A DNA stretch of 32,626 bases from an uncultured Ignavibacteria bacterium (GTDB lineage: Bacteria > Bacteroidota > Ignavibacteria > Tepidaquicellales > OLB5), in assembly GCA_937873695.1 (NCBI GenBank), contig CALMYL010000027.1, positions 1-32,626 of the forward strand. Reading direction: 5' to 3'. The translations under genes were made by a program, and so were the position numbers. This document shows positions 1 through 31,871 of the stretch, piece after piece. The stretch's first letter is position 1; every line of letters begins with the position of its first letter. The notes beneath the pieces were generated by a model. It was not told where the DNA came from and did not search any database. It worked only from the letters and a program-made list of their open reading frames with translations.

Positions 1-875
1 TTCTTTTACGAATATACACCTTAATTTCTTGTCTACAAAATCGAGGTCACTTCAAGGATCTGCTAAAAGATAATTTGAGATTTGCATGGAAAAGTTACAA
101 ATATTATTATTTAATGAAATTATATGATGCAAGAACTTATAGAATTTGCAGGAAAAGATATAATAACTACATTGAACATGTAATTACTAGAAATGGAATT
201 CCGTGGCTTCTAGCTTTGTATTTGATCTACGAATATGGGTTTAATTTCAAAACTGTACTATTTTCAATTATGCTCTTACTATTCTTATACTCAATGTTTA
301 GATATGTGACTGGTGGCTTTATTTCATCTGCGCTAACCAAGATAAATCCACTTTATGTTAGATTAAACTTTTATTCGACTGATTTATCCAGTGGTGTGCG
401 TAATATCTACAGTGTATTTGGATATGTTGCTTTTTCGTTTTTATCTCAATTATTCTATATTTCCGGTTTAGTATTTATCTATTTTAGTACTTCCATTGAT
501 GTCGAAACTAGGAAAATTTTGTCATCCATTTTACAAGTATTAATATTTGGCAATTTCATTGTTATGATCAGAGCAGGAATTGTTTCATTACTAAAACCTT
601 TCATAATAAAGAATAGTTTATCATTTCAAATGAACCACATAAAATCAAAAATTCAAAAGAAATTATCCAAACCCAAATTTAAGATTACAGGTATAACTTT
701 GTTAGTTTGTTTCTCTAATCTGTCTATTAATTTTTGGTCTACTTCAAGGAAATTTATAAATAGTTTCATTAAAGTGTCAATATCATTGGTTTCTCTCCTA
801 TTTACTCTTTTCATTACAGCCTACCCAGAAATTATTAAAGAATTAATAGAAAATATAAAGAAAATTCTCACTTAA
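1..875 (+). CDS. Integral membrane protein of unknown function, 5' end cut by the window edge
   Basis: The reading frame is open from base 3 to the TAA at 873-875. The first codons already read like protein (GHFKDLLKDNLRFAWKSY), so the gene most likely begins upstream of the window. Internal candidate starts are TTG at 75 and ATG at 114, and neither is compelling. The visible part has a basic, tyrosine-rich stretch followed by several hydrophobic segments: a strong pair around residues 40-75 counted from the TTG, two more at about 112-140 and 150-180, and one near the C-terminus at about 230-250. I recognise no family motif. It is convergent with the nuclease gene, whose stop lies 34 bases downstream. 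Base composition is AT-rich like the next two genes. Function unknown. Confidence 0.6.
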   Translation, partial: LLRIYTLISCLQNRGHFKDLLKDNLRFAWKSYKYYYLMKLYDARTYRICRKRYNNYIEHVITRNGIPWLLALYLIYEYGFNFKTVLFSIMLLLFLYSMFRYVTGGFISSALTKINPLYVRLNFYSTDLSSGVRNIYSVFGYVAFSFLSQLFYISGLVFIYFSTSIDVETRKILSSILQVLIFGNFIVMIRAGIVSLLKPFIIKNSLSFQMNHIKSKIQKKLSKPKFKITGITLLVCFSNLSINFWSTSRKFINSFIKVSISLVSLLFTLFITAYPEIIKELIENIKKILT

Positions 876-909
876 AAAGAATATGTTATATTCAAGATGA
901 GGATAATTA

Positions 910-1932
910 TTAATTCCTGCCTCCAAAATACCTTTTCAAAGTTTCGGAGTTATCACTGAACGACCTTTTCATTATGTTATCATTCGTATAACTTCTTAAT
1001 TTTGGGAAAGTATGGAATTTCCCTGCTTTAATTTTAGACATAAAGTTATATATCATATGACCAGTAAATAAACACAATTTCTCAGTAATTTCTGCATTAA
1101 ACATGCCAATATAACGCATTATTAGGTGAGAAAAGCGTGGCATACTTTGTGTGCTATTCATTTCTGTAATCATAGTTTTGGTATTATCTTTTGATATATC
1201 AACAACTTTTATCTTGACAAAACTATCAATTACAGCAGACTCCATTGCATCAATTTCTTCAAAATTCGAATTATCTAGCGAAATTTCAACTTTTACTAAA
1301 TTTCCATATTCTTTGTTTTTAAAAACTAATTCCTTTTCAATATTTTTATCATAATACTTTTTTCTATAAAATTCTTTGTTAAACATACAATAAAAATCCC
1401 CGAAAACGATCGATATATCATTCTTTAATGATTCGTGCATGTTGATTACATATTCATTTTTCTTTTTCTTAAAAACATCTATTGCATTTATTGTCCACAT
1501 ATTAAATTTTATCCAATGTATAGCAAACAATATTGGTATTTCAGTCTTCTCAGAATAAGAAATTAGACAGTCAATTTGCTTCTTCATTAACGAAATATTT
1601 TCTTTGTTTGAAGATTTGACTTCTATCAATACAGATAAATCTTTACCTTTAAAAGATTTATAAATTACATTAAAATCCGGGACTTGATATTGGGATTTTG
1701 ATTGTTCTGGATATTGTTTTTGTTCTAGACCATGAACGAGTTTTACATAAGGCAGCATTGAATATATGCATGCAAAGTAATTTTCCACAGTAAATCCTTT
1801 TTCAAATCTAGTGATATTATCTTTAACATTTGGGTCAGTAATTTGATTCGATAATTTATGAAAGACTTCATCAACATTTTTAAATGCTGATTTTAGTTTA
1901 AACAAATTATATATTTTATCTATATCAGACAT
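910..1932 (-). CDS. PD-(D/E)XK nuclease-like protein
   Basis: This 340-residue protein carries a recognisable PD-(D/E)XK core. VPDFNVIY places the aspartate at D86, and LIEVKSS supplies E104 and K106 after a beta-hairpin-sized spacing. E50 in a preceding helix could be the extra acidic residue seen in many such folds. The family cleaves DNA or RNA with bound metal, so nuclease activity is inferred, not shown. The C-terminal half (about 200-340) is basic and matches nothing I know; it may be a target-recognition or partner-binding domain. The start codon follows the stop of the upstream membrane-protein gene (1935-2777) by two bases, so the two are surely co-transcribed. The pairing with a membrane anchor suggests defence or another accessory role. 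Confidence 0.6.
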   Translation of the reverse strand: MSDIDKIYNLFKLKSAFKNVDEVFHKLSNQITDPNVKDNITRFEKGFTVENYFACIYSMLPYVKLVHGLEQKQYPEQSKSQYQVPDFNVIYKSFKGKDLSVLIEVKSSNKENISLMKKQIDCLISYSEKTEIPILFAIHWIKFNMWTINAIDVFKKKKNEYVINMHESLKNDISIVFGDFYCMFNKEFYRKKYYDKNIEKELVFKNKEYGNLVKVEISLDNSNFEEIDAMESAVIDSFVKIKVVDISKDNTKTMITEMNSTQSMPRFSHLIMRYIGMFNAEITEKLCLFTGHMIYNFMSKIKAGKFHTFPKLRSYTNDNIMKRSFSDNSETLKRYFGGRN

Positions 1933-1934
1933 TT

Positions 1935-2777
1935 TTAAAAGTTAATTGTATAAATTCCTTCGTTATATCTTCCTTCATTTTTGTCAGCAAAGATCACCTG
2001 AAATTTAAAAGACAAGCTATTTGATTCAATAAATTTTCGAGTAAATTTTACACCATTGCAAGTTGTTATAGTTTTACTATCAAATGCAAATACAAATAAA
2101 TTATAATCACTCAAATCAATCTCAAATTCAAATTCTTTTTCTTTATTATTTATAATGCATTGATCATATTGCAACTCCCAACCAACTGCATTGTATAAAT
2201 TTTTGTCAAAATAAAAAATAATTTTCGAAACTTTACCCTCAATATTTCCTGTATTAATTAATGTTACTCTTAAAAAACCAAAGGTATAGTCATTCATTTT
2301 CTCTATTAAGATGTTATCAATAAAGATATCGGCTTTTTTTAGGCTATTACTTCTTAATATCTCAGTTTCTTGTTTTGCATATTCAGTTAATGTAGCAAAA
2401 CTTGCAGAGACCCCATCAATTTTTCCTGGCATTTCTGAAACTAATTCATTTACTTTTTCTACGTTTTCTACTAATTTACCGGAAGTATCGGCCAAAGTTT
2501 TCAATGCCTGCAAGTTTAACTCTGCTGTTTTATCCTGTTTTCCTATAAGAGATTTTTGAAGTCCTATTAGAGTATCTTGTTTTGAAAGATTGGTTTTAAA
2601 TTGTTCATTATTTCCAGTACTTTCATTAACCGCATACCAAATAGCCCATACTGCCGCTAGAGTTTGAATTAACGTTGCAATATTTCCAAACAAATTTTTA
2701 TCTTTATCTTTTTTAAATGATATTATGTAAAAAGATAAAATGACTCCAGTAATAATTATTGCTATTAATAGTTCCAT
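1935..2777 (-). CDS. Membrane-anchored coiled-coil protein, partner of the nuclease-like gene
   Basis: A 280-residue protein with two N-terminal hydrophobic segments (about 2-20 and 32-50) separated by a lysine- and aspartate-rich loop (KKDKDK). Next comes a long heptad-like region (about 55-150) rich in L, K, E and Q that should form a coiled coil. The C-terminal domain (about 150-280) looks all-beta: it is rich in alternating hydrophobic, aromatic and polar residues (FGFLRVTLINTGN, FEFEIDLSDYNLFVFAF). The hairpin topology would place the coiled coil and beta domain on the same side of the membrane. No enzymatic motif is visible. It is the first gene of a two-gene operon with the PD-(D/E)XK gene (2-base gap) and is divergent from the carbonic anhydrase. 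I do not recognise the family. Confidence 0.55.
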   Translation of the reverse strand: MELLIAIIITGVILSFYIISFKKDKDKNLFGNIATLIQTLAAVWAIWYAVNESTGNNEQFKTNLSKQDTLIGLQKSLIGKQDKTAELNLQALKTLADTSGKLVENVEKVNELVSEMPGKIDGVSASFATLTEYAKQETEILRSNSLKKADIFIDNILIEKMNDYTFGFLRVTLINTGNIEGKVSKIIFYFDKNLYNAVGWELQYDQCIINNKEKEFEFEIDLSDYNLFVFAFDSKTITTCNGVKFTRKFIESNSLSFKFQVIFADKNEGRYNEGIYTINF

Positions 2778-2903
2778 ATTAAGAGGAATAAGTTAAGAAA
2801 ATTTAATAATTTCTTAGCTAAATTAAAATATCATTTTTTACCCTATCATATTAAATCCCATATGTTTAGATTGCTGGTATTTCATAAACCAAACTTCATC
2901 CAA

Positions 2904-3623
2904 ATGAAAACATCAAAAAGCAGCTTTAGATCGCTGTTTATATTCATTGCATTAGTTTGTTTTCTAACATCATTTAATGTTCGTCTCTCAGCGCAGGATT
3001 CCACGGTTACACAGAATAAGGAGTCACAGTCAAAACTTACTCCCGCTGATGCGCTTCAGTTGATGAAAGACGGCAATGCAAGATTTTTAGATGGAAAAAT
3101 GATACAGCGTGACCTGAACAAACAGGTTTCAGCGACCTCAAAGGGTCAATACCCGTACGCGGTTTTACTTAGCTGTATTGATTCACGCGTTGCACCTGAA
3201 ATTACATTTGACCAGGGAATTGGCGATATCTTTGATGCAAGGATCGCAGGTAATTTTGCTAATGATGATATTTTAGGCAGCATGGAGTATTCCTGTAAAG
3301 TTGTTGGCGCAAGGCTTATATTGGTTATGGGTCACACCGAGTGCGGAGCGATAAAAAGTACAATTGATGATGCGCAGCTTGGTAACATAACGCAGATGCT
3401 TGCAAAGATCAAGCCCGCCGTAGAAAAAACAGTTTACGATGGAGAGAAATCATCAAAGAACTACGATTATGTCGATCTGGTTTCAAAAGAAAATGTACTG
3501 CTGGCTGTAGAGAACATTAAACTCAATAGCCCGATTCTAAAAGAAATGTATGATAAAGGTGAAATTGATATAGTCGGCTGTATGTATAACGTTCAGAATG
3601 GAAAAGTAGAATTCTATAAGTGA
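2904..3623 (+). CDS. Beta-class carbonic anhydrase with signal peptide
   Basis: Interconverts CO2 and bicarbonate using zinc. The beta-class signature is complete: SCIDSR gives zinc ligand C91 with the D93/R95 dyad, and GHTECGA gives ligands H144 and C147 (numbering from the ATG at 2904, 239 residues). I chose this start because it opens a normal signal peptide (MKTSKSS, a hydrophobic stretch, then LSAQ). An in-frame ATG at 2862 would put 14 extra residues before the signal. Export to the periplasm is therefore likely, while most beta enzymes are cytoplasmic. The mature N-terminus (about 30-55) is a polar linker before the catalytic domain. It stands alone: the gene before it is divergent and the gene after it is convergent, with paired hairpins in the 3' spacer. 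Confidence 0.92.
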   Translation: MKTSKSSFRSLFIFIALVCFLTSFNVRLSAQDSTVTQNKESQSKLTPADALQLMKDGNARFLDGKMIQRDLNKQVSATSKGQYPYAVLLSCIDSRVAPEITFDQGIGDIFDARIAGNFANDDILGSMEYSCKVVGARLILVMGHTECGAIKSTIDDAQLGNITQMLAKIKPAVEKTVYDGEKSSKNYDYVDLVSKENVLLAVENIKLNSPILKEMYDKGEIDIVGCMYNVQNGKVEFYK

Positions 3624-3634
3624 GATTTATTTCC

Positions 3635-3691
3635 GTGTCGGGACGTATTTCCCGACACCACGCTCTGCGGCGTCAGGTCTTTCGACCTGAC
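3635..3691. repeat. Two adjacent perfect hairpins between convergent genes
   Basis: The first hairpin pairs GTGTCGGGA (3635-3643) with TCCCGACAC (3650-3658) over a 6-base loop. The second pairs GTCAGGTC (3672-3679) with GACCTGAC (3684-3691) over a TTTC loop. They fill the spacer between the carbonic anhydrase stop and the convergent higA stop, so a bidirectional termination or RNA-end-protection role is plausible. Neither has a clean U-tract. A related but imperfect TGTCGGGTA hairpin occurs at 22871-22890, which suggests a dispersed intergenic repeat family. Confidence 0.6.
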
Positions 3692-3725
3692 ACCAAATAT
3701 AATTGATATACTCTGAAAATATTTT

Positions 3726-4028
3726 TCACAGTTTAACCGAAAAAGTCAGCTTGCCTCCCAAACCTTTATTGATAATTCGCATTAAAGTAGAAAGCCTGAT
3801 ATCCGAGGCGTCATTTTCTATTCGTGAAATATAAGATTTATTTGTACCCGCTTTCTGAGCTAGCTCTTCCTGTGTCATTTTAAGTTTTTTCCGGGCATCT
3901 TCTATCAGTACGCCTATTTTGAACGCCTCAAATTCCTGTTCCCATTCTTCTCTTGGCTTATGGCCTCTTTTCCCGTATTTCTTATCAAGAAGTTCATCGA
4001 AAGTAGTTAAGTTCTTATTTTTTTTCAT
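3726..4028 (-). CDS. higA: HigA-like antitoxin, XRE-family HTH
   Basis: A 100-residue protein with an N-terminal linker (about 1-38) and an XRE/Cro-type helix-turn-helix at about 40-95. The hallmark run is MTQEELAQKAGTNKSYISRI, followed by a third-helix region ending in LGGKLTF. In the HigBA family the antitoxin binds and neutralises the toxin and represses the operon. It lies 14 bases downstream of the toxin gene, so the order is toxin first, typical of hig modules. A near-perfect palindrome inside the operon promoter (4357-4374) is its likely operator. Confidence 0.85.
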   Translation of the reverse strand: MKKNKNLTTFDELLDKKYGKRGHKPREEWEQEFEAFKIGVLIEDARKKLKMTQEELAQKAGTNKSYISRIENDASDIRLSTLMRIINKGLGGKLTFSVKL

Positions 4029-4042
4029 TAAAATATTCCTCT

Positions 4043-4348
4043 TTAATTTTCAAAGCTTTTTGCGATCACTCCCTTTGGAGTTTTCTGCGTTTTCTTCTGG
4101 AACGCATTTCCCAGAACAACAATATTATCTTTATCAAAAAAAGAAAAAATCCTGAAGATATTTCCCTCTGCATTGATTCTTATTTCAAAAAGACCTTTTA
4201 TTCCTTCCATATGTTTAAAATATTTCTCAGGTATTACCCTTAGATCACGAATCAATCCTAAAGTCCATTCCGTCTTCTTTTGCACTTCGGGTGATTGTTT
4301 TTCATAAAAATCCATAAAATACCTCTTATATATTATGATCTGCTTCAC
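4043..4348 (-). CDS. higB: HigB-like toxin, RelE/ParE superfamily (phage Gp49-like)
   Basis: A 101-residue basic protein of the Gp49/HigB type, expected to be a ribosome-dependent mRNA interferase. The family pattern is clear: IIIYKRYFMDFYEKQSPEVQ at the start, then FKHMEGIKGLFEIRI, FRIFSFFDKDNIVVLGNAF and the closing QKKTQKTPKG. The start shown is GTG at 4348, which keeps the first conserved strand. An ATG at 4315 has a better ribosome site (AGAGG six bases upstream) but would remove that strand. The -7 box at 4353-4360 sits only a few bases before the GTG, so GTG initiation would be nearly leaderless. Which start is used cannot be settled by reading. Confidence 0.85.
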   Translation of the reverse strand: MKQIIIYKRYFMDFYEKQSPEVQKKTEWTLGLIRDLRVIPEKYFKHMEGIKGLFEIRINAEGNIFRIFSFFDKDNIVVLGNAFQKKTQKTPKGVIAKSFEN

Positions 4349-4352
4349 ACTA

Positions 4353-4384
4353 CAAAGTTATCTGATCAGACAACTATATACAAA
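4353..4384 (-). promoter_or_regulatory. higBA promoter with embedded palindromic operator
   Basis: On the minus strand the sequence reads TTTG (4381-4384), a 20-base spacer, then TAACTTTG (4353-4360). This matches the Bacteroidota-type consensus TTTG-N19/20-TAnnTTTG. The palindrome GTTATCTGATCAGACAAC (4357-4374, one mismatched pair around a perfect TCTGATCAGA core) overlaps the -7 box and the spacer. That is where an autorepressing HigA dimer would block the polymerase. Confidence 0.6.
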
Positions 4385-4453
4385 TCAAAAAAAAGTGTAA
4401 ATACATACGGTTTTTCCTGTTAAATTTAAACATCTATTTATACTTTCGTAATT

Positions 4454-4801
4454 ATGGCATACAGCGAAAAACTTGCGGAAAGAATTACAGAACTGCTTAA
4501 GCCGCAGAAAAAACTTGAGATTAAGAAAATGTTCGGCGGCGTATGTTATATGCTGAAAGATAAGATGATAGCGGGAATTGTTCTGGATAAGCTTATGATA
4601 AGATGTCTGCGTGAGGAATACGATTCCCTGCTAAAAAAACCTCATGCAGGTGAAATGACTTTTACCGGTAAACCAATGAAAGGTTTTCTGTATGTTGCTC
4701 CTGAAGGGATACGTACCGATAAACAACTGCAAAAATGGCTGGATGTTGGAATTGAGTTTACTCATAAGAGTCCGCCAAAGAAGAAGAAAAAGGCAAAATA
4801 A
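4454..4801 (+). CDS. TfoX N-terminal domain protein
   Basis: A 115-residue protein matching the stand-alone TfoX/Sxy N-terminal domain. Typical features are EIKKMFGGVCYML near residues 21-33, MIAGIVLDKLMIRC, and the FTGKPMKGFLYV segment near 70-82. The tail is strongly basic (PPKKKKKAK). In gamma-proteobacteria the full TfoX/Sxy protein regulates competence, but the isolated domain is widespread outside competent species and its role is unclear. I therefore do not infer competence. It is a single gene, divergent from higBA; a partial -7-like TACTTTCG lies at 4441-4448. Confidence 0.8.
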   Translation: MAYSEKLAERITELLKPQKKLEIKKMFGGVCYMLKDKMIAGIVLDKLMIRCLREEYDSLLKKPHAGEMTFTGKPMKGFLYVAPEGIRTDKQLQKWLDVGIEFTHKSPPKKKKKAK

Positions 4802-4850
4802 CCGCAAATTTTCAAAATGTAATGAACTATTATACTAAAAAAGAAATTAT

Positions 4851-4858
4851 TATATTTG
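4851..4858 (+). promoter_or_regulatory. -7 box candidate for the UPF0175/DUF3368 pair
   Basis: TATATTTG is an exact match to the TAnnTTTG box, 18 bases before the TTG start of the antitoxin-like gene. I could not find a convincing -33 TTTG at the usual spacing, so this is a partial promoter match only. Confidence 0.3.
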
Positions 4859-4876
4859 GATATATAACAATTACAA

Positions 4877-5104
4877 TTGAAAACATTAACTTTAAATTTA
4901 CCGGATTCATTGAATCTTGATGACAAAGAAGCAATAATGCTGCTTGCAGTTAAGCTATATGAACAGGCTAAACTTTCATTGGGTGAAGCAGCAGATCTTG
5001 CCGGTCTATCAAAAAGGGAATTTACCGAAACCCTTGGTAAATACAATGTTTCAGTATTTAATTATCCTGCATCAGATCTTTCAAAAGATTTGAGTAATGC
5101 CTAA
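4877..5104 (+). CDS. UPF0175 family antitoxin-like protein
   Basis: A 75-residue protein with the UPF0175 layout: a short beta segment (LTLNLPDSL), a helix (EAIMLLAVKLYEQAKLSLGEA) and the family's helix-turn-helix-like region AADLAGLSKREFTETLGKY, ending in VSVFNY. It starts with TTG at 4877. A TAA in frame 12 bases upstream (4865-4867) leaves no other start that keeps the first strand. It overlaps the following DUF3368 gene by eight bases (ATGCCTAA). UPF0175 and DUF3368 proteins commonly pair as a putative antitoxin and PIN-domain toxin. Confidence 0.8.
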   Translation: MKTLTLNLPDSLNLDDKEAIMLLAVKLYEQAKLSLGEAADLAGLSKREFTETLGKYNVSVFNYPASDLSKDLSNA

Positions 5105-5555
5105 AATTGTCATTTCAGATACAAGCTGTCTAATTATTCTTTCCAATATCAACGAACTTGAAATTCTAAAACATCTTTACGGTGAGATTTTTACTACTAT
5201 TGAAGTCAGTAAAGAATTTGGTGAACCTCTTCCTGAATGGATAATCATAAGGTCACCCGGTGATTTGTTAATCAGAAGATCTTTAGAACAACAAATAGAT
5301 AAAGGAGAAGCAAGTGCAATTGCCTTAGCATTAGAAACTCCGGATTGTATTATAATTTTGGATGACCTTAAAGCCAGAAAGATCGCTGAAAAATATGGGT
5401 TAAAGATCACGGGAACATTGGGGATTATTTTATATGCGCATGAAAAAGGAATTGTAAAATCAGTAAAACACTTACTTGACAAGATGAAAAAATCCGGATT
5501 CAGAATAACTGATGAAATTGAAAAAGAAGTATTAATAAAAGCGGGTGAAATATAA
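5097..5555 (+). CDS. DUF3368 PIN-domain toxin-like protein
   Basis: A 152-residue PIN-like protein, predicted to be a metal-dependent ribonuclease. The acidic cluster is visible: ISDTS gives D8, the GEASAIALAL motif gives E71, and ILDDLKARKIAE gives D89 and D90. The closing segment TGTLGIILYAHEKG is typical of DUF3368. It is translationally coupled to the UPF0175 gene upstream through an eight-base overlap, which supports a toxin-antitoxin pair. Toxicity itself is an inference from the family. Confidence 0.8.
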   Translation: MPKIVISDTSCLIILSNINELEILKHLYGEIFTTIEVSKEFGEPLPEWIIIRSPGDLLIRRSLEQQIDKGEASAIALALETPDCIIILDDLKARKIAEKYGLKITGTLGIILYAHEKGIVKSVKHLLDKMKKSGFRITDEIEKEVLIKAGEI

Positions 5556-5626
5556 GAATCACTTACCAACTTACAAATATGTCTAAGCTTTTAGATAATC
5601 CAAAACAAAAACAATGAAGCAATTTC

Positions 5627-6073
5627 ATGAAAACAATTGAATCAAATTGTATCTTTTGTGATATCGTTACTGGTAAAGCAGAATCAAGTAAGATCTATGA
5701 AGATGAACATATTATTGCATTAATGAATATCAGACCTGTAAATGCAGGTGAGTTTTTAATTATACCAAAGATACATATAGATCATTTTATTGATTTGCCA
5801 AGTGAACTGGCCTGTCATATTTTATTGACTGCTCAAACACTTTCAAATAATTTAATGAAAACCTTGAAGCCGCTGAGAATAGGTTATTTAGTACATGGTT
5901 TCGGAGTGCCTCATGCACATTTGAATGTGATACCGCTCAACTCTCCTAACGATATCGTATCCATAAAGCAATTGAAGATTATTAATGAGGAAATTATCGA
6001 CGATATAACTCTTTTACCTCAGCCAACAAGATCTGAATTAGACAAAATTGCTTCTGAACTTAAGAATTGCTAA
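5627..6073 (+). CDS. HIT-family protein with altered histidine triad
   Basis: A 148-residue histidine-triad protein, a nucleotide hydrolase or transferase family acting on adenylated or other NMP-linked substrates. The N-terminus has the zinc-type CIFCDIV (C8, C11), then KIYEDEHIIALMNIRPVNAGEFLIIP. The triad region reads VPHAHLNVIPL: the first histidine (H96) and the nucleophilic middle histidine (H98) are present, but the third position is asparagine (N100; codon AAT). Loss of the third histidine may lower or alter activity. A separate gene with no operon partner that explains its substrate. Confidence 0.8.
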   Translation: MKTIESNCIFCDIVTGKAESSKIYEDEHIIALMNIRPVNAGEFLIIPKIHIDHFIDLPSELACHILLTAQTLSNNLMKTLKPLRIGYLVHGFGVPHAHLNVIPLNSPNDIVSIKQLKIINEEIIDDITLLPQPTRSELDKIASELKNC

Positions 6074-6100
6074 TTGCTCATTATTAAATGTTAATTGTTT

Positions 6101-6628
6101 ATGACATACTTCGCATTCCTAAAAGGAGTTAACGTTTCAGGTCACCGTATAATTAAAATGGCTGAGCTTAAAGCCATGTTTGAGGATATGGGATTTAAGA
6201 ATGTACGTACATTTATTCAGAGCGGGAACGTTGTATTTGAATCCCCTGCCAAAGCTGATGCGTTGAAGAAAAAAATAGTAGCAGGACTCGCAAAATCACT
6301 GGGATACAATGTAAATGTCATTATACGCAGTAAAGATGAAATGGAAAAAATTGTTAAAGATTATCCTTTCAGCAAAATTAAAGAACACGATGAATGCAAA
6401 ATCAATATCGGTTATCTTGATAGCGCACCTGATAGATCAGCGTTAAAGGAACTGGAAAGTATGAACAACGATGATGAAATGTTTCTTGTTAAAGGAAATA
6501 ATTTATATCATCTATGCAGAAAGAGCTTTCAGGATTCGCTTTTGGGTAAGAATATAGTTGAAAAGAAGCTAAAATTGATTTGCACTGTAAGGAACTGGAA
6601 CACAACAAATAAAATTCAGAAAGTTTGA
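6101..6628 (+). CDS. DUF1697 family protein
   Basis: A 175-residue protein of the DUF1697 family, recognisable from its opening YFAFLKGVNVSGHRIIKM, the MFEDMGFKNVRTFIQSGNVV segment and the later HDECKINIGYL. The family has no established biochemical function. I use the ATG at 6101; a TTG two codons upstream (6095) is also in frame. The TGA stop overlaps the TTG start of the next gene by four bases (TTGA), so the two are translationally coupled. Confidence 0.85.
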   Translation: MTYFAFLKGVNVSGHRIIKMAELKAMFEDMGFKNVRTFIQSGNVVFESPAKADALKKKIVAGLAKSLGYNVNVIIRSKDEMEKIVKDYPFSKIKEHDECKINIGYLDSAPDRSALKELESMNNDDEMFLVKGNNLYHLCRKSFQDSLLGKNIVEKKLKLICTVRNWNTTNKIQKV

Positions 6629-7101
6629 TTGCGCTAAAAAAACAATACAAGCTAACCCAGCTGGCAAGGGCTGAACTGCTGAACTTCTGCGGGACGCTTA
6701 AACCGAAGGACCTGAATAAAGAAATTGCATTATTTAACAATTCCACAATTACAGGTATGCTGCTGCACATAGCAAACACATATCACTTTTGGCTTATGCG
6801 CTTTGCCGGTAAACAGGAATTTGAATATTTCGATGAAAAAAATATTTCTGATATAATCGACGTTAAGAAAATATTTGAACTTACCGATAAACTTGTAATG
6901 AGTTTTCTCGATTCATATCCATACCATACGACAAGGATAAAGGGTGAAATATTCTGGCTGAAAACTGATATGACTTTCAATGTGCTGGAGTTATTCACAC
7001 ATGTAATGACTCATGAGTTTCACCACAAAGGACAGATAATGTCTATGACAAGATTGCTGGATTACTCACCTGTGGATGCTGATATTATCAGGTTCAATTG
7101 A
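6625..7101 (+). CDS. DinB-like (YfiT/DinB metal-binding fold) protein
   Basis: A 158-residue four-helix protein of the DinB superfamily. The presumed metal ligands are H48 (LLHIANTYHFWL), H130 and H134 (the THEFHHKGQIM motif). Despite the name, the family is unrelated to DNA polymerase IV; many members are thiol-dependent transferases or remain uncharacterised. It starts with TTG inside the stop of the DUF1697 gene (TTGA overlap), and no better in-frame start keeps the first helix. Substrate unknown. Confidence 0.8.
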   Translation: MIALKKQYKLTQLARAELLNFCGTLKPKDLNKEIALFNNSTITGMLLHIANTYHFWLMRFAGKQEFEYFDEKNISDIIDVKKIFELTDKLVMSFLDSYPYHTTRIKGEIFWLKTDMTFNVLELFTHVMTHEFHHKGQIMSMTRLLDYSPVDADIIRFN

Positions 7102-7109
7102 TATCAATT
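7096..7109. promoter_or_regulatory. 14-bp perfect palindrome upstream of hicBA
   Basis: AATTGATATCAATT is a perfect palindrome overlapping the stop codon of the DinB-like gene, about 60 bases before hicB. A partial -7 box (TATATTTA, 7140-7147) follows. The HicB here is short and lacks a visible DNA-binding domain, so an operator role for this site is uncertain. Confidence 0.25.
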
Positions 7110-7169
7110 TGAAACATTTTATTATAGTTCAAAATTTATTATATTTAAACTAAGAAATAAAAGCAAACA

Positions 7170-7379
7170 ATGAATAACCAGCAATTTACAGCAGTAATAC
7201 ACAAAGAAAAAAATATTTATGTAGCAAATTGCCCCGAAGTGGGTACTGTCAGCCAGGGGTCTTCGATTGAAGAAGCTGTCTCGAACTTAAAAGAAGCTAC
7301 TGAATTGTATCTTGATGAATTCCCTCTTGATGAATCATATACATCAATAATTACCACTTTTCAGGTTACTCATGCCTAA
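7170..7379 (+). CDS. hicB: HicB-like antitoxin
   Basis: A 69-residue protein with the partly degraded RNase-H-like HicB fold: FTAVIHKEKNIYVANCPEVG, then SQGSSIEEAVSNLKEATELYL. It neutralises the HicA mRNA interferase in characterised systems. This copy is short and has no C-terminal HTH or RHH domain, so it probably does not bind DNA by itself. The last eight bases overlap hicA (ATGCCTAA). Order is antitoxin first. Confidence 0.85.
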   Translation: MNNQQFTAVIHKEKNIYVANCPEVGTVSQGSSIEEAVSNLKEATELYLDEFPLDESYTSIITTFQVTHA

Positions 7380-7599
7380 ATTACCAATTCTTTCCGGCAA
7401 AGAAATAATAAAAATACTTAACAAATTTGGATTTACTGAGATCAGACAAAAAGGCAGCCATGTAATTTTAAAAAAGTACGCGGAATCCAAAGAAATCGGT
7501 TGCGTTGTTCCCTTACATAAAGAAGTTGCTATCGGTACTTTGAGGGGGATTTTAAAGCAAGCCAACATTGCCCCTGCAGAGTTTATTACAAATCAATAA
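7372..7599 (+). CDS. hicA: HicA-like mRNA interferase toxin
   Basis: A 75-residue protein with the double-stranded-RNA-binding-like HicA fold. It has the expected GKEIIKILNKFGF opening, the catalytic-histidine motif KGSHVIL (H30), and PLHKEVAIGTLRGILKQA at the end. HicA toxins cleave mRNA independently of the ribosome. It is coupled to hicB through an eight-base overlap. Confidence 0.9.
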   Translation: MPKLPILSGKEIIKILNKFGFTEIRQKGSHVILKKYAESKEIGCVVPLHKEVAIGTLRGILKQANIAPAEFITNQ

Positions 7600-7644
7600 A
7601 ATTATGTTATACTTCACTATTCCGCCATTTAACCACTCCACTAT

Positions 7645-9171
7645 TTGATAAACATCTGCATACACGGACATTTTTACCAGCCTCCCCGCGAAAATCCATG
7701 GACGGGCGAAATTGAAAAGCAGGTTAGCGCTGAGCCGTATCATGACTGGAATGAACGCATTCACCATGAGTGTTATAAAGCAAATTCAGAAGCGGAAATA
7801 ATTGATGATACAGGCAAAGTTGTAGCCATAGTCAATAATTATGAGCTGCTGAATTTTAATTTCGGTCCAACCCTGCTTGCATGGATACAGAATAAACATC
7901 CCGAAACATACAATAGGATAATTGAAGCAGATAGAAACAGCATTCCCCAGCATAAAGGGCACGGCAATGCAATTGCCATGTGTTACAACCACATGATAAT
8001 GCCATTGGCTAACATGAATGATAAGATCACACAGGTTGTATGGGGTCTCGCTGATTTTAAACATCACTTCGGGCGTGATTCCGAAGGCATCTGGCTGCCG
8101 GAAACAGCCTGCAACATTGAAACGGTTGAAGTATTGATAAATCTCGGGATTAAATACATCATACTTGATACCGGCCAGGCAGCGTTTTACAGGAAAATGG
8201 GATCGAACGATTGGATCGATGTAAACGACGGTTCCATAAATCCCAAAAGGCCATACAGGTGCCATTCAGAAATTCATAAAGAAAAGTTTTTAGATATATT
8301 TTTTTATGACGGACCGGTATCAAAATCCGTGGCATTTGATGATGTACTTGAAAGCTCACAGAACCTGCTGAAAAAAATATTCAATGCTGAAGATAAAGAA
8401 ACAAAAGAAAATCAGCTGATAAGCGTTGCAACCGACGGCGAAACTTTCGGTCACCACAAAAAACATGCTGAAAGAACGCTTGCGTTCTTTATGAAATCGC
8501 TTGCCCCGCAGAATGAACTTAAAATTGTAAATTACGGCGAGTATCTAGAAGCAAATCCCCCGCAGTTTGAAGTAAAGATCAAGCCCGGCGATAATGGTGA
8601 AGGTACTTCGTGGAGCTGTGTGCATGGCGTTAAACGGTGGAAAGAAGATTGCGGCTGCGGAGGCGGAGGCGGATGGATCCAGCAGTGGCGCAAGCCGCTG
8701 AGGGAAACTATGGACTGGCTGCGTGACCAGATGATAATTATTTTTGAAAATATCGGCGGAATAATTTTTACTGATGTTTGGAAAGCCCGGAATGAATATA
8801 TTTCTTTGCTGCTGAATAACACTTTGGAAGAACGGGATAGTTTCTTTAGAAATAATACCTCCAAAGAACTTTCTGAAAACGAAAAGCAAATCGCAATTAA
8901 ACTGCTTGAAATACAGCGGTATTCTATGCTGATGTATACAAGCTGCGGATGGTTCTTCAGTGAGATATCCGGACTTGAAACTGTTAAGATACTTGAATAC
9001 GCTGCCCGTGCTATGGAAATTGTGAATGAACTGACCGGGATAAATGTTGAAAATGACTTTAAACTAAGATTAGACGAAGCTAAGAGCAACATTCCCAAAT
9101 ACAAAACCGGCAAAGGGGTCTACGAAAAACTTGTTGTGCCCCATAAACACCTGAACATAAACCAAATGTAG
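7645..9171 (+). CDS. Glycoside hydrolase family 57 protein with DUF3536-like C-terminal region
   Basis: A 508-residue GH57 enzyme, a family of retaining alpha-amylases, glucanotransferases and branching enzymes acting on alpha-glucans. The N-terminus IHGHFYQPPRENPW is region 1. GIWLPETA carries the probable nucleophile E153, and VATDGETFGHH the probable acid/base D264. A glycine-cysteine-rich loop (CGCGGGGGW, about 336-344) follows. The C-terminal helical part includes MYTSCGWFFSEISG, as in the GH57/DUF3536 proteins, but those I recall are longer. The start is TTG at 7645, because a TAA at 7630-7632 closes the frame upstream and the conserved first strand begins at once. malQ follows seven bases after the stop, so an operon for glycogen or maltodextrin turnover is likely. 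Confidence 0.9.
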   Translation: MINICIHGHFYQPPRENPWTGEIEKQVSAEPYHDWNERIHHECYKANSEAEIIDDTGKVVAIVNNYELLNFNFGPTLLAWIQNKHPETYNRIIEADRNSIPQHKGHGNAIAMCYNHMIMPLANMNDKITQVVWGLADFKHHFGRDSEGIWLPETACNIETVEVLINLGIKYIILDTGQAAFYRKMGSNDWIDVNDGSINPKRPYRCHSEIHKEKFLDIFFYDGPVSKSVAFDDVLESSQNLLKKIFNAEDKETKENQLISVATDGETFGHHKKHAERTLAFFMKSLAPQNELKIVNYGEYLEANPPQFEVKIKPGDNGEGTSWSCVHGVKRWKEDCGCGGGGGWIQQWRKPLRETMDWLRDQMIIIFENIGGIIFTDVWKARNEYISLLLNNTLEERDSFFRNNTSKELSENEKQIAIKLLEIQRYSMLMYTSCGWFFSEISGLETVKILEYAARAMEIVNELTGINVENDFKLRLDEAKSNIPKYKTGKGVYEKLVVPHKHLNINQM

Positions 9172-9178
9172 TTAAATA

Positions 9179-11002
9179 TTGTTTAATACAGAAAATAACG
9201 ATGCATATTTCCTAAACAGCCGGACTGCTGATAAATGGCGCAGGATCGGAACAAAGCGCAGGGCAGGTGTTGCCGTTCCCCTTTACTCCGTTTATTCTGC
9301 TGAGAGCACCGGAATTGGTGAATTAACGGATATCAAACTATTAGCAGAATGGTGCATAGCTGCGGGTATATCTATCATTCAGTTGTTACCCTTAAACGAT
9401 GTTGGCAGTGATTTTGCGCCCTACAATTCTGTTTCATCATTTGCCATCGACCCTATGTACATAACCATTAAGGATATTCAAAATGCTGATATAAAACCTT
9501 TTTTGCATGAACTCGAGAGGCTCAAAAAGAAATACAAACCGCATTTCAGAAGAGTCAATTACAAAATTAAGCAGGCAAAAATTGACCTGTTGTGGAGGAT
9601 ATACAAGTCAACAAAGACTGATGATATAGCTGAATATAACTATTATAAATCAGCTAACGAGTACTGGCTTAATGATTATTCCCTTTACAAAGTAATTTCA
9701 GAACTGAATCCTGATACCGGATGGCAGAATTGGGATGATGGACTTAAAAACAGGGAACTTCAGGCAATTGATAATTTTCAGAAAGTAAATTTCGAGCGGA
9801 TCGAATTCCATAAATGGATGCAATGGCAGTTATATGAACAGCTGAAAGAGGTCAAACAATTTCTGGAGTTCAGGAATATTCTGCTGTTGGGTGATCTCCC
9901 CTTCCTTGTTTCCCGCGAAAGCGCTGATGTATGGTCACACCCCGCATACTTTATGCTTCAGCTATCTTCAGGCGCGCCGCCTGATATGTACTTTGCTATG
10001 GGACAAAAATGGGGCATGCCCCCGTATGAGTGGAACAATATCGCAAATGATGGATTCATTTACGTTAAAGAGAAGCTTAAATATGCCGAAAACTTTTACG
10101 ATATGTACAGGATAGATCATTTTGTAGGATTATTCCGGGTTTGGGTTAGTCCCGTTGATGATTACACTACCCCCGGTTCATACATGCCAAAAGAGGAATA
10201 CCTGTGGGAACCGCACGGCAGACGGATCATTGAAGAAATGGTAAATTCATCAAAGATGCTCCCCTGCGCCGAAGATCTTGGCACCGTGCCGGGATGCTCA
10301 TATCATGTATTGAGTGAATATGGAATACCCGGAATAGATTTTCAGCGTTACTATAAGAATCAGGGCGGTTTCCGCCCGGGGTATGAATACAGGCTTAATT
10401 CCGCGGCAGTATGCTCAACCCATGATTCAAGCTTCTGGGTAAACTGGTGGCAGTTTGAAGCCGGCACTATTGATGAAAAACTATTCGATATGTCTTGTGA
10501 AAAAGCAGGCATCCACCCCGGGCATGTTAAGTACTGCAAAAAAATATTATTCGATAAGAAAAGATCAAAACATGGCAGGCTTTTCTGGAATGATGAAATA
10601 ACTTCTCCGCAGCTTGCAGCCGAAATTCTTGGCGCACAGCAGGATTCAATTCACAGTATCTTGTATGCTTATGCAGAAAGTTACAGGGAAAAGGAAAAAT
10701 TCCTGGGTTATTTAGGATTTGAAACTGATATCAACGGAATTTCAACGGACCTTGTCAAAAAATGCATGGAATCGATAAATCACAGTAATTCTATATTCAG
10801 CTTACAGCTGATTCAGGATTACCTTTCACTTGACACAGAATTACTTCATACTATCGGCAAGTACAATTACAGAATTAATACTCCCGGAAGCGTAAGCAGG
10901 AATAACTGGTCTCAGTTGATGCCATTGAGCCTTGAAGAACTTAAAGAATCTGCAATTAATGAACCTTTAAAGCAGGTTCTGATGAATTCAAAAAGAGCAT
11001 AG
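9179..11002 (+). CDS. malQ: 4-alpha-glucanotransferase (GH77, amylomaltase)
   Basis: Transfers 1,4-alpha-glucan segments between maltodextrins, releasing glucose. All three GH77 catalytic motifs are present: YRIDHFVG (nucleophile D313), CAEDLGTVP (acid/base E365) and STHDSS (D416). LLPLNDVGSDFAPYNSVSSF near residue 69 is the conserved substrate-binding segment. Length 607 fits the family, with an insertion-like region around 95-235. The start is TTG at 9179: a TAA at 9173-9175 blocks any earlier start and the next ATG would remove the first barrel strand. It is coupled to the GH57 gene upstream and convergent with ppk2 (12-base gap). Confidence 0.95.
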   Translation: MFNTENNDAYFLNSRTADKWRRIGTKRRAGVAVPLYSVYSAESTGIGELTDIKLLAEWCIAAGISIIQLLPLNDVGSDFAPYNSVSSFAIDPMYITIKDIQNADIKPFLHELERLKKKYKPHFRRVNYKIKQAKIDLLWRIYKSTKTDDIAEYNYYKSANEYWLNDYSLYKVISELNPDTGWQNWDDGLKNRELQAIDNFQKVNFERIEFHKWMQWQLYEQLKEVKQFLEFRNILLLGDLPFLVSRESADVWSHPAYFMLQLSSGAPPDMYFAMGQKWGMPPYEWNNIANDGFIYVKEKLKYAENFYDMYRIDHFVGLFRVWVSPVDDYTTPGSYMPKEEYLWEPHGRRIIEEMVNSSKMLPCAEDLGTVPGCSYHVLSEYGIPGIDFQRYYKNQGGFRPGYEYRLNSAAVCSTHDSSFWVNWWQFEAGTIDEKLFDMSCEKAGIHPGHVKYCKKILFDKKRSKHGRLFWNDEITSPQLAAEILGAQQDSIHSILYAYAESYREKEKFLGYLGFETDINGISTDLVKKCMESINHSNSIFSLQLIQDYLSLDTELLHTIGKYNYRINTPGSVSRNNWSQLMPLSLEELKESAINEPLKQVLMNSKRA

Positions 11003-11014
11003 ATTTCGCATTAA

Positions 11015-11932
11015 TTATTTTGTTTTATCCTCATTTAAAATAAGTGCCTTAGCTCCTTGCAGCTCTTGTTTTTCTTTCTCGCTTATCGAAGGGTAACCTA
11101 AATTAAGTTTTTCCAAAGTACCCACAATTATATCTCCCACAGCAGCTCTCATAAACCACTTCTTATCAGCGGGTATAACAAACCATGGCGCATAATCAGT
11201 GGAAGTATTTTCAATGGCATCTTCAAAAGCCTTCATATACTTATCCCACAATTGCCGCTCTTTTACATCGCTAATGGAAAATTTCCAGTTCTTTTCGGGC
11301 TCATCTATTCTGGATAAAAACCGTTTCTTCTGCTCATCCTTTGAAACATGCAGAAAGAACTTTATAATTACAGTACCATTTTCATATGCCTGCTTCTCAA
11401 AATTATTGATGATCTCGTAACGTTTCTGCCAGAATTTTTTATCGACTTTATCTATCGAGTCAATACCCGGTATATTTTGACCCAGAATATACTCAGGGTG
11501 TACGCGGGTTACAAGCACTTCTTCGTAATGCGAACGGTTAAAAATGGCAATCATTCCCCTTTTGGGCATAGCCCGGTTTATGCGCCACAGGAAATCATGC
11601 TCAAGCTCCTCAACCGATGGCTGTTTAAAGCTGGTTACGTTGCATCCCTGGGGATTTACACCCGTCATTACATGCTTAATAGTGCCATCTTTGCCGGCTG
11701 CATCCATTGCCTGGATAACTACAAGCAGTGAGTACCTGTTCATAGCATAAAGCATATCCTGCAGTTCCGCAAGCCTGCTTATATCTTTAGCGAGCATTTC
11801 AGCCGCATCTTCTTTGCTTTTGAAGTTTGCTGTATAGCAGGTATCAAAATCCTTTAGATTCACTTTTTTACCGGGTTTTACCAGCAGGTTTTCATCTTTC
11901 CTGAAATTATTATCTGTAGAATTACTTCCCAT
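11015..11932 (-). CDS. ppk2: Polyphosphate kinase 2 family phosphotransferase
   Basis: Transfers phosphate between polyphosphate and nucleotides. The Walker A motif is AMDAAGKDG (75-83), and the Walker B-like motif is FNRSHYEEVLVTRVHP (131-146). The FNRSHYE form, instead of FDRSWYNR, resembles the PPK2 class that can phosphorylate both AMP and ADP from polyphosphate; this class assignment is by motif memory. Length 305 is normal for a single-domain PPK2. It lies 33 bases after the metallopeptidase gene on the same strand, the last member of a probable four-gene run. Confidence 0.92.
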   Translation of the reverse strand: MGSNSTDNNFRKDENLLVKPGKKVNLKDFDTCYTANFKSKEDAAEMLAKDISRLAELQDMLYAMNRYSLLVVIQAMDAAGKDGTIKHVMTGVNPQGCNVTSFKQPSVEELEHDFLWRINRAMPKRGMIAIFNRSHYEEVLVTRVHPEYILGQNIPGIDSIDKVDKKFWQKRYEIINNFEKQAYENGTVIIKFFLHVSKDEQKKRFLSRIDEPEKNWKFSISDVKERQLWDKYMKAFEDAIENTSTDYAPWFVIPADKKWFMRAAVGDIIVGTLEKLNLGYPSISEKEKQELQGAKALILNEDKTK

Positions 11933-11965
11933 AAAATTTAGATATTTAATTCCTCAAATATAACA

Positions 11966-13084
11966 CTATTTGTAGAATTTATCGTAATATTCCTTTATTT
12001 TTCCGGGGGTAAACCTGCCTTCTTTGTATATTCGTATGATAAAATCCCTGAATACTTCGCCCCTTGAATTATAATTCTCTTCCTTCATTATCTGATAAAG
12101 CGCAATTGCAAGAACGTGAATACCCTCATCACTTTCCTGCCATCTTTTGCGTGCGTCATTTGATACACCAAGATTTTCGTTTATCATTTGGTCAAGCGAC
12201 TGCACACAATCCTCTTCAAACAGCCCGTCAAGTGTGTTGTAGCCAAGTGACTTGTTGTGATTATTCACCTTATCCATTACAAACTCATCTTTACTGAATG
12301 ATTCAATCACCCCTCTTAGCTCCGCATCATTTTTGTAATCGTACGGCGGGTGCATCATTTCATGTGCTGAAGTGCGGATAGTAATTTTAAACGGCCAGGC
12401 GATTGATGTTAAAAAACGCATTCCGGTTATTTTTATGCCGTGCGGCCTGTTGTAATAAAGCATGTAGACCGTAATAGTATCAGAAGGCAGTTTAAAGCCC
12501 AGCAGCATTTCATTCTGTGCTATTACATCGTACTTATCAAGTCCCTGCTTTTCTGCTTCAATTCTCTTAACAATTTTCGGTTTGATGTTCTCCGTCCAGT
12601 ATTCCTTAAATCCATTATCTTTTAGATATTGGAATATCTGCAGCAGTTCATCCTTTACCGAAATAAATATCCCCCAGCTCTCTTCATCATAATACGGCGT
12701 TTTCATGAAATTCGTTTTCAATTCTGCGGGATCTTTTACTGCATCTATCAAATCCCCAAGCTCTTCACCATCTATAGCAGAAAAATACAGGCATAACCAC
12801 GCCGAAATGATAATTTCATTATCAAGCTTCAGCTTCTTGTGAAGCGATGTTACCGCATTTTGAACTTCCGGCGGCATTTTATTTTCATACGGATTCAGCT
12901 CATTCGGGTAATGCTCCTTATAATAAGGATCAGCTGTTAATATGTTCATAAAACAGCACAGGTCATATTTAAACGATGGTTCAATTTTCCATTTTGTCAT
13001 AGATTGTGAAAATAAATTATTTTGAAATTGATTAAATATAAGAGATAAAGAAAAAATCAGGGCTGTAACAAGAATAGCTCTCAT
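11966..13084 (-). CDS. Exported HExxH metallopeptidase-like protein
   Basis: A 372-residue protein with a signal peptide (MRAILVTALIFSLSLIF, likely cleaved near ...LFSQ, about residue 27), so it probably acts in the periplasm or outside. HEMMH (241-245) in TSAHEMMHPPYDY is a zinc metallopeptidase motif. LFEEDCVQSLDQMI, about 45 residues later, could supply a glutamate third ligand (E290 or E291), as in gluzincins. I do not recognise the exact family. The start overlaps the stop of the TPR gene by four bases (ATGA), so the two are translationally coupled. The substrate is unknown. Confidence 0.75.
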   Translation of the reverse strand: MRAILVTALIFSLSLIFNQFQNNLFSQSMTKWKIEPSFKYDLCCFMNILTADPYYKEHYPNELNPYENKMPPEVQNAVTSLHKKLKLDNEIIISAWLCLYFSAIDGEELGDLIDAVKDPAELKTNFMKTPYYDEESWGIFISVKDELLQIFQYLKDNGFKEYWTENIKPKIVKRIEAEKQGLDKYDVIAQNEMLLGFKLPSDTITVYMLYYNRPHGIKITGMRFLTSIAWPFKITIRTSAHEMMHPPYDYKNDAELRGVIESFSKDEFVMDKVNNHNKSLGYNTLDGLFEEDCVQSLDQMINENLGVSNDARKRWQESDEGIHVLAIALYQIMKEENYNSRGEVFRDFIIRIYKEGRFTPGKIKEYYDKFYK

Positions 13085-13950
13085 TCGCTCAATGATTTAA
13101 GCCTCTCCAGCTTCTCTTTATCATTTTCCTGAACCCAGATATCCTTTGATAGCTGTTCGTATGCACTTTTAAAATATGGCTTAGCCTCATCTGCCCTGCC
13201 CAGAGCATGCAGACATTCCGCTATTTCTTCTGAGTTGTAGCCATCTTCACAGGAATACATTTCGCTATCCTTACCGCGCAAATCCACTTGCATTTTCAGC
13301 GCTTCTTCGGTTCGTCCAAGTGACCTTAAACATCTTGCCACCGACCATTTAGCAATATACAACTGCGTACCTGATTTTCTTTCTGTATGCCATACCACAT
13401 TGCGCTCAAAGAGCTCTAAGGCTTTATCAAATTCGCCCATATCATGGTAGGTCCACCCCGTATTATTATAAAGCGCGCCAAGCCAGCCTTTTGCTTTTTC
13501 GTCTTCGGTATCTTCTGCCATCTGAATGGCAAGCTCATTCCATTTCAGCGATTCATCGCCCTTATCAACTATACCAAGCATATGCACAGCATCGATCGCT
13601 AGATTATCTTCCTCATATTTATCAGCCTGCATATACGCCCCCATAAAAAGCTCGCGAGCTTTATCATATTCCTTAGCGGAATTATAGGTCCTGCCCCGCT
13701 CAAGCATAAACCGTATTCTTGGGACAATATGCTCAGGCTTTAGCAGCTTCATAACCTTATCAAGAATCTCATGCGCTTCGGTAAATTTGCGCTGCAGACT
13801 CTGCGTGCGGGCAAGCTGAGTTAAGAGCTCAATGTAATACTCTTTATCTTTCCCCTTTTCAGCCTTTGGAAGGAGCTCTCTGAACTTTGCTTCAGTTCCT
13901 GCGGGGTCATTATAATCCCATAGTTTATCAAAATCCCTTTGTTCAGCCAT
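13081..13950 (-). CDS. TPR-repeat protein
   Basis: A 289-residue, apparently soluble protein made almost entirely of tetratricopeptide-like helical pairs, for example LLTQLARTQSLQRKFTEAHE (about 43-62), YNSAKEYDKARELFMGAY (about 89-106), YNNTGWTYHDMGEFDKALEL (about 161-180) and SVARCLRSLGRTEEALKMQ (about 204-222). Such repeats bind partner proteins. No signal peptide is visible, although the coupled downstream gene encodes an exported peptidase, so the two products may not meet. It starts nine bases after the Nudix-like gene. Confidence 0.85.
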   Translation of the reverse strand: MAEQRDFDKLWDYNDPAGTEAKFRELLPKAEKGKDKEYYIELLTQLARTQSLQRKFTEAHEILDKVMKLLKPEHIVPRIRFMLERGRTYNSAKEYDKARELFMGAYMQADKYEEDNLAIDAVHMLGIVDKGDESLKWNELAIQMAEDTEDEKAKGWLGALYNNTGWTYHDMGEFDKALELFERNVVWHTERKSGTQLYIAKWSVARCLRSLGRTEEALKMQVDLRGKDSEMYSCEDGYNSEEIAECLHALGRADEAKPYFKSAYEQLSKDIWVQENDKEKLERLKSLSE

Positions 13951-13959
13951 ATAAAATAA

Positions 13960-14400
13960 TTACCTCATGTTTGAAAACAATTTTTCTATAGTATATTTCG
14001 CCCAGCCGCGGTGCGCTATTTCGCTATCATCGGGCAGTGCGAACCTATCGAACCATTTGTATTCACTGATATCCCCTGAAGTTGTCGGCATTATCTCCGG
14101 CAGGGCATCTACCTTCTGCCAGTAGTGGAATATCAAATGCCATGAGCCGTCATTGCCAACAAATGATTCAATGAACCCAAAGCTCAGATTTGCCGTAATA
14201 TAGCTCATTTGTTCATTCAGTATCCGCCTTGCGGCATCCGAAGGATGCTCATTGAATTTCACCATATCATCCGGGATAAACCAACCTGATTGATTATCAT
14301 ACTTGTTTGTTTCCTTGTACTTGCAGAGCAGCACCTTATTGTTATGTATAAGCGCCACATCCGCAATTAATTTTACTTTTTTATCGTCAGTTGTTATCAT
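13960..14400 (-). CDS. Nudix-fold protein with degenerate Nudix box
   Basis: A 146-residue protein with Nudix architecture: ADVALIHNNKVLLCKYKE as the first strands, GWFIPDD before the box, and a typical second half (FIESFVGNDGSWHLIFHYW and EYKWFDRFALPD). The box itself (45-67) aligns as D-x5-E51-x7-R59-I60-x2-E63-Q64-x-S66. The two glycines and two of the usual glutamates are replaced, so metal-dependent hydrolysis may be lost and the domain may only bind a nucleotide. It is the first gene of the minus-strand run with the TPR, peptidase and PPK2 genes. Confidence 0.75.
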   Translation of the reverse strand: MITTDDKKVKLIADVALIHNNKVLLCKYKETNKYDNQSGWFIPDDMVKFNEHPSDAARRILNEQMSYITANLSFGFIESFVGNDGSWHLIFHYWQKVDALPEIMPTTSGDISEYKWFDRFALPDDSEIAHRGWAKYTIEKLFSNMR

Positions 14401-30943: not shown

Positions 30944-31843
30944 TTACATGATCGAATAATTTGGATTATCCATTATTTCAATAATATTTTCTCGTTCGAC
31001 ATCATTTATTTCTTCATACACCTCTTCTAATTGATCAATAAAGTTATCTTTCTTAATATCATTCTCCAAACCCAATATTACTTCTTGAAAACTATTATCG
31101 AATGCAATTGGTTTCAAAGTTTTTACAATTTTCTTTAATTCAGAATCTTCATTATTATTCAACAAAAATATTATCATTTCTTTCAAGGCTAAACGTTCCT
31201 TTATAAAATTATATTCTTTTCTAATAAATATTTTATATGATTTTGATTGAGAATTTTGCTCATAAGTGTATATGTTTAATTCACTGCATTTATTCACTAT
31301 TAAATCATACAACAAACTGCAAATCTTCCCTAACATAATGCCAAATTTAATTTTAACCTCATCAGAATTAGGGGTAGCAAAAAAATCATCTTCAGAAATT
31401 TCTACACCAAAATATTTATTGAAATATTTCATCAATTCGGTTTTTTCATTTACAAATATATTTGTATTAGATATAGAATATCTATCGTATCGTAGGTCAT
31501 TATAGAATTTATTAAGTAAATCTAAAAAAGAAATATGTTCTTTTCCTATTTTGATATCTTCAAATTTTTTAAGTCTATTAATCAATAATTGATGGTTATG
31601 ATTTTTCAATTCTTTTTCTAATTTTTTCAAATCTTCATATGATTCATTTTCAATCAAAATAACTGAAATCTTTAGAAGTCTTTCTATGCCTACTGAAATA
31701 TTATACAAAAATTCGAAAACATTTGGTTCTTCAGTAAAGAATTCAATATTATCCAAAGATTTTAAACCATTGTAAATAAAATTCCCCGAAACGGACAATT
31801 CAGTTCCTAAATTAAAATTTAACCAAAATTCTTTTTTATTCAT
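30944..31843 (-). CDS. Uncharacterised helical protein, possibly HEPN-like, paired with the OLD-TOPRIM gene
   Basis: A 299-residue, lysine- and asparagine-rich, mostly helical protein that I do not recognise with certainty. The N-terminal half has features seen in HEPN-type folds: FEFLYNISVGIERLLKISVI (about 43-62), a conserved-looking HNHQLL (82-87), and LRYDRYSI (117-124) at the end of a helix. It lacks a clear catalytic Rx4-6H motif, so RNase activity cannot be claimed. The C-terminal part (about 195-299) is charged and acidic. It begins 28 bases after the TOPRIM gene's stop on the same strand, so the two are very likely one operon. Confidence 0.5.
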   Translation of the reverse strand: MNKKEFWLNFNLGTELSVSGNFIYNGLKSLDNIEFFTEEPNVFEFLYNISVGIERLLKISVILIENESYEDLKKLEKELKNHNHQLLINRLKKFEDIKIGKEHISFLDLLNKFYNDLRYDRYSISNTNIFVNEKTELMKYFNKYFGVEISEDDFFATPNSDEVKIKFGIMLGKICSLLYDLIVNKCSELNIYTYEQNSQSKSYKIFIRKEYNFIKERLALKEMIIFLLNNNEDSELKKIVKTLKPIAFDNSFQEVILGLENDIKKDNFIDQLEEVYEEINDVERENIIEIMDNPNYSIM

Positions 31844-31871
31844 ACAATTGTTATTTCAATTAATCAAATTA

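Follow-up and report, generated by a model that had tools for sequence, protein, structure and literature searches.

Several prokaryotic defence proteins are built around nucleases of the PD-(D/E)XK type. PD-T7-1, PD-T7-5 and others, described in an E. coli pangenome screen, are single-gene defence proteins of this kind (PMC10952713), and ShdA, from the Shield system, is a membrane-bound anti-phage nuclease that contains an RmuC domain (PMC10270631). A literature search of incomplete coverage found no described system combining a membrane coiled-coil protein with a PD-(D/E)XK nuclease. Such a gene pair is present near one end of the window (G000:C27:1-32626), the whole 32,626-nucleotide stretch of DNA analysed here, which belongs to a host genome of 3.78 Mb in 30 contigs. 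The original prediction described the pair as a membrane protein coupled to a nuclease.

The two genes lie on the reverse strand. The first one, at positions 1935..2777, encodes a membrane protein of 280 amino acids, from an ATG start to a TAA stop at 1937-1935, and is followed after 2 bases by the ATG (1932-1930) of a nuclease gene at 910..1932, which encodes 340 amino acids. Both reading frames and the 2-base spacing had been predicted and are found at these exact coordinates. Shuffling the AT-rich stretch 500 times gave a longest stop-free run of 77 codons on average and of 172 at most; both frames are longer and therefore exceed what is expected by chance. The 2-base spacing suggests that the two genes are probably co-transcribed.

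The 340-residue protein has an Hjc-type PD-(D/E)XK core with conserved catalytic residues. It comprises a module at about residues 21-182, with a structural core at 48-178, and a C-terminal part at 183-340. Four sequences went into the structure model, in which only the core is confident (pLDDT 72-84 for residues 101-140 and 75-83 for 151-170, lower around 44-61), the C-terminal half being unreliable, with pLDDT below 40. The core superposes on the Hjc structure 2wiw with a Z score of 14.2 over 118 residues at 2.3 Å (VIA-align), well above the best non-Hjc chain (Z 9.6), and a Foldseek search with it reached E 7e-7 to 2wcw, the best 27 chains all being archaeal Hjc-type resolvases. The PD-(D/E)XK assignment made from the sequence is thus borne out by the predicted fold. 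Pfam, NCBIfam and PHROGs also match the protein to the Holliday junction resolvase Hjc, weakly but consistently: the Pfam match (PF01870, E 3.8e-4) scores 20.8 bits, just under the cutoff of 21.1, and the match to the NCBIfam Hjc equivalog (NF040854) scores 20.8 bits against a cutoff of 70. Of eight relatives, seven match the Pfam family independently; the curated cutoff is exceeded by two of these and equalled by one.

The motifs named in the original prediction, VPDF and LIEVKS, are present at residues 84-87 and 102-107, and the family profile aligns them with VPDI and IEVK of Hjc, respectively. The D86 codon of the VPD motif lies at 1675..1677 and the codons of the (D/E)XK motif, E104-V105-K106, at 1615..1623, all on the reverse strand. 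An additional conserved acidic residue, which the prediction had not listed, is E50 in the first core helix (codon 1783..1785, reverse strand). E50, D86 and K106 are invariant in all nine aligned members, and position 104 is a glutamate in all except the Acinetobacter member, where it is an aspartate. In the proposed mechanism, E50, D86 and E104 would hold the metal ions and K106 would be the catalytic lysine. The protein is probably a metal-dependent DNA endonuclease, with DNA cleavage and anti-phage activity as its putative functions.

Relatives of the nuclease are found on plasmids of Acinetobacter, Rhizobium, Agrobacterium, a Paracoccaceae bacterium, Methylosinus and Sinorhizobium, as well as on two viral contigs; a search of annotated phage records returned no match. 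Two subfamilies can be distinguished, one formed by the window's nuclease and the Acinetobacter protein (32% identity), the only relative sharing its C-terminal part, and the other by the alphaproteobacterial and viral members. The N-terminal module, at about residues 21-182, is common to both (hhalign probability 99.3) and the remainder did not align. The distribution is sporadic, the gene being present in 1 of 391 genomes of its class. PADLOC has no family matching the window's nuclease, and known defence models matched no member of the family, except for a weak DruK match of the most distant one.

Most of these relatives sit in defence settings, which are of varied kinds. One viral member (L012) lies between the portal and replication-initiation (RepA) genes of a P2-like phage. 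This interval corresponds to that between gpA and gpQ of P2, a described anti-phage hotspot of P2-like phages (PMC9122126), and the gene is therefore located in a defence hotspot; the small two-helix membrane protein near it is divergent and shows no relationship in Pfam or PHROGs. Other relatives are accompanied by AbiE, an N-6 methylase and a caspase family protein (L004), by an ABC-three-component system (L006), or, in a phage tail region, by PDC-S45 and a Gabija/OLD-like ATPase (L013), and an Mrr-like gene adjoins one relative. The most distant member (L007) is found in a conjugation region and not among defence genes. Because most neighbourhoods are of the defence kind, which is circumstantial evidence, the family is likely to have a role in anti-phage defence, and its nuclease probably needs no fixed partner. 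Absent from PADLOC, lacking a Pfam family of its own and recurring at phage-defence hotspots in unrelated bacteria and prophages, it offers a low-cost candidate for a new single-gene effector against phage.

Two Rhodobacterales plasmids present a distinct arrangement, in which the nuclease relative lies directly before a PD-T7-1-like gene (L005:5977-8369 and L038:6001-8280). In the first, the nuclease gene overlaps the PD-T7-1 homologue (E 3.7e-70) by 4 bases. In the second, from Sagittula, the nuclease is apparently broken into pieces, its neighbour is near-identical to the PD-T7-1 homologue of the first plasmid, and SIR2 and Fic genes are also present. The second proteins are closely similar, and the two genes may constitute a genuine two-gene unit of that lineage.

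The membrane protein contains two N-terminal hydrophobic helices (residues 3-21 and about 29-47 by hydropathy), a coiled coil, whose heptad (3.5) periodicity peaks in windows starting at about residues 90-100, and a C-terminal β domain with predicted strands at 166-279. This is the architecture that had been proposed from the sequence. The protein is not recognised by Pfam, PADLOC, NCBIfam or PHROGs, and its single-sequence model was poor (pLDDT 41) and was not used for fold searches. Weak matches of the family to CARF_TM (PADLOC E 0.009), tape-measure and SNARE-like proteins are typical of coiled coils and were set aside. Relatives were sought with a two-member profile in the 391 genomes of the class, and two real ones remain. 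The relative in G568 has 240 residues (z 10.9 against 1000 shuffles), stands alone and adjoins a transposase-like gene. That in G582 has 323 residues (E 3.2e-8) and likewise two helices, a coiled coil and a β domain; it is preceded by a deaminase/MazG-like fusion gene and a small two-helix protein, both named from reading of the sequence. This G582 locus, with the deaminase-like and MazG-like gene upstream (L052:5070-8083), may represent a different type of defence locus. Candidates in G051 and G062 were rejected as RmuC coiled coils, their match being limited to the helical and coiled-coil part, the one in G128 as a short, unlike protein of 117 residues, and three loci matching stretches of the β domain (L040, L043 and L046) for lack of a similar architecture. 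By these comparisons, the protein belongs to a sparse family that combines membrane helices, a coiled coil and a β domain.

The pair is located in the right-hand part of an AT-rich insertion (window positions 1..2820) between glgB, on contig C28 (C28:1431-3923), and a carbonic anhydrase gene (2862..3623, forward strand; Pfam Pro_CA E 1.7e-40), which is the conserved flank, being present in 10 of the 13 genomes of the genus. The GC content is 26.8% at 1-2820 versus 37.8% at 2821-14000, and homology to related genomes starts at about 2821-2836. In four relatives, glgB and the carbonic anhydrase gene are separated by 73-414 bp, which defines the empty site, and in the host the interval comprises 1.4 kb of C28, a gap between the contigs and 2.8 kb of the window, with 27% GC in both sequenced parts. 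The ends of C28 and C27 have no clear overlap, and it is the gene order in relatives that suggests joining C28 to this end of C27. The contig ends at base 1, and the edge seen there is therefore partly an artefact. The AT-rich edge of an accessory block that the prediction had placed here is accordingly confirmed as to its composition and only in part as an edge, given that the island continues on C28. A second membrane protein with several hydrophobic segments, open at the contig end (3..875, forward strand), is contained in the same insertion and has no Pfam or PADLOC family. The other end of the island (C28, 3-1404) encodes a protein of 224 residues whose N-terminus is hydrophobic and also contains a frame, open at the contig end, that spans at least 172 residues; neither has a convincing family. 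The readable part of the insertion contains no recognisable integrase or transposase. Both genes of the pair are absent from the 12 other genomes of the genus, and this, together with the empty site in relatives, suggests that the pair is probably a recent arrival in the host lineage.

Other loci of the same contig were also annotated, all on the reverse strand. Positions 14654-17020, inside a second AT-rich stretch (about 14.5-18 kb), encode a STAND NTPase with an Mrr-like nuclease domain (PADLOC PDC-S73, E 1.5e-179) and constitute a second candidate defence locus. Between the carbonic anhydrase gene and its next conserved neighbour, which nearly adjoin in G271, lies a probable toxin-antitoxin pair (3726-4348) composed of a Gp49-like protein (Pfam E 1.5e-17) and a helix-turn-helix-like protein. 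At 30944-32357, close to the opposite contig end, a third AT-rich stretch contains two ORFs without assigned family, one of them with a weak match to PADLOC PDC-M55B (E 1.2e-4).

Close spacing of two genes in a single genome does not by itself make them a conserved system, and the homologues of the two proteins are not neighbours at the other loci examined, an outcome that the original prediction had named as refuting the coupling. A membrane partner of this kind is present at none of the nine other nuclease loci and a nuclease neighbour at neither of the two other membrane-protein loci, a small sample of eleven informative loci in which the scan of named-genome contigs, run with a three-member alignment, gave one; this was the already known Rhizobium locus, so that co-occurrence is under-sampled there. 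The Acinetobacter nuclease has no such membrane neighbour either. Since that relative alone shares the C-terminal subfamily, less weight attaches to the lack of pairing in the other one. The proposal of a membrane protein coupled to the nuclease as a conserved system is, on these loci, not supported. A true two-gene defence system specific to this lineage, in which the coiled coil would anchor or oligomerise at the inner membrane and the β domain would sense infection and hold or release the DNA-cutting nuclease, would be consistent with the common strand, the close spacing, the similar AT content and the shared insertion, and has a precedent in the membrane-bound ShdA (PMC10270631); we nevertheless consider it unlikely, given the lack of co-occurrence and an Acinetobacter member with the same C-terminal part and no such neighbour. 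The pair could also be a new system in which the membrane coiled-coil/β sensor protein tethers or gates the Hjc-type nuclease as a split counterpart of ShdA-like nucleases, a reading that we hold to be rather unlikely.

The similarity to Hjc raises the question of whether the protein could instead act in DNA repair or recombination, as a bacterial Hjc relative that resolves branched DNA for a mobile element, and not against phage. Holliday junction resolvases are its closest matches among solved structures and profiles, and relatives are carried by plasmids and prophages, one of them in a conjugation region. However, the protein falls far below the equivalog cutoff, is about 2.5 times the length of Hjc and has a sporadic distribution, and the mostly defence-related neighbourhoods also argue against this role, which appears quite improbable. 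Gene order and tight spacing like those of some toxin-antitoxin operons could be taken to indicate a host-toxic nuclease that the membrane protein restrains, but nuclease relatives exist without the membrane protein and without any other common partner, as do membrane-protein relatives without the nuclease, and we regard this arrangement as very improbable. Our preferred reading, which we hold with moderate confidence, is that the nuclease is a single-gene anti-phage effector carried on an accessory island and the membrane protein a separate accessory gene. In this reading, the C-terminal part, in which the two nuclease subfamilies differ, would select or sense either the target DNA or a state specific to infection, after which the Hjc-type core would cut DNA. 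The membrane protein may be co-expressed with the nuclease, which would most likely work without it.

Four described groups of proteins resemble the nuclease or the pair. The effector nuclease of SPARDA, a short Argonaute partner, has a nuclease domain that aligns with a Z score of 9.1, whereas no Argonaute match is found among the neighbours of the nuclease in the window. ShdA of Shield likewise combines a membrane helix with a restriction-endonuclease-like nuclease, but in one polypeptide with an RmuC domain; here there are two polypeptides, and the nuclease has no match to that domain (PF02646) at E values up to 1. Proteins such as PD-T7-1 and PD-T7-5 are also PD-(D/E)XK nucleases at accessory loci, and a PD-T7-1 homologue overlaps or adjoins two of the nuclease relatives, although the window's nuclease, unlike PD-T7-1 and other PADLOC families, matches no PADLOC model. 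Archaeal Hjc (PF01870, NF040854) agrees with the window's nuclease in the core fold, across 118 residues, and in the E, D and (D/E)xK residues; the window's protein, under the equivalog cutoff and with a sporadic, accessory distribution, differs from it in its length of about 340 residues, compared with about 130 in Hjc, and in its extra C-terminal part.
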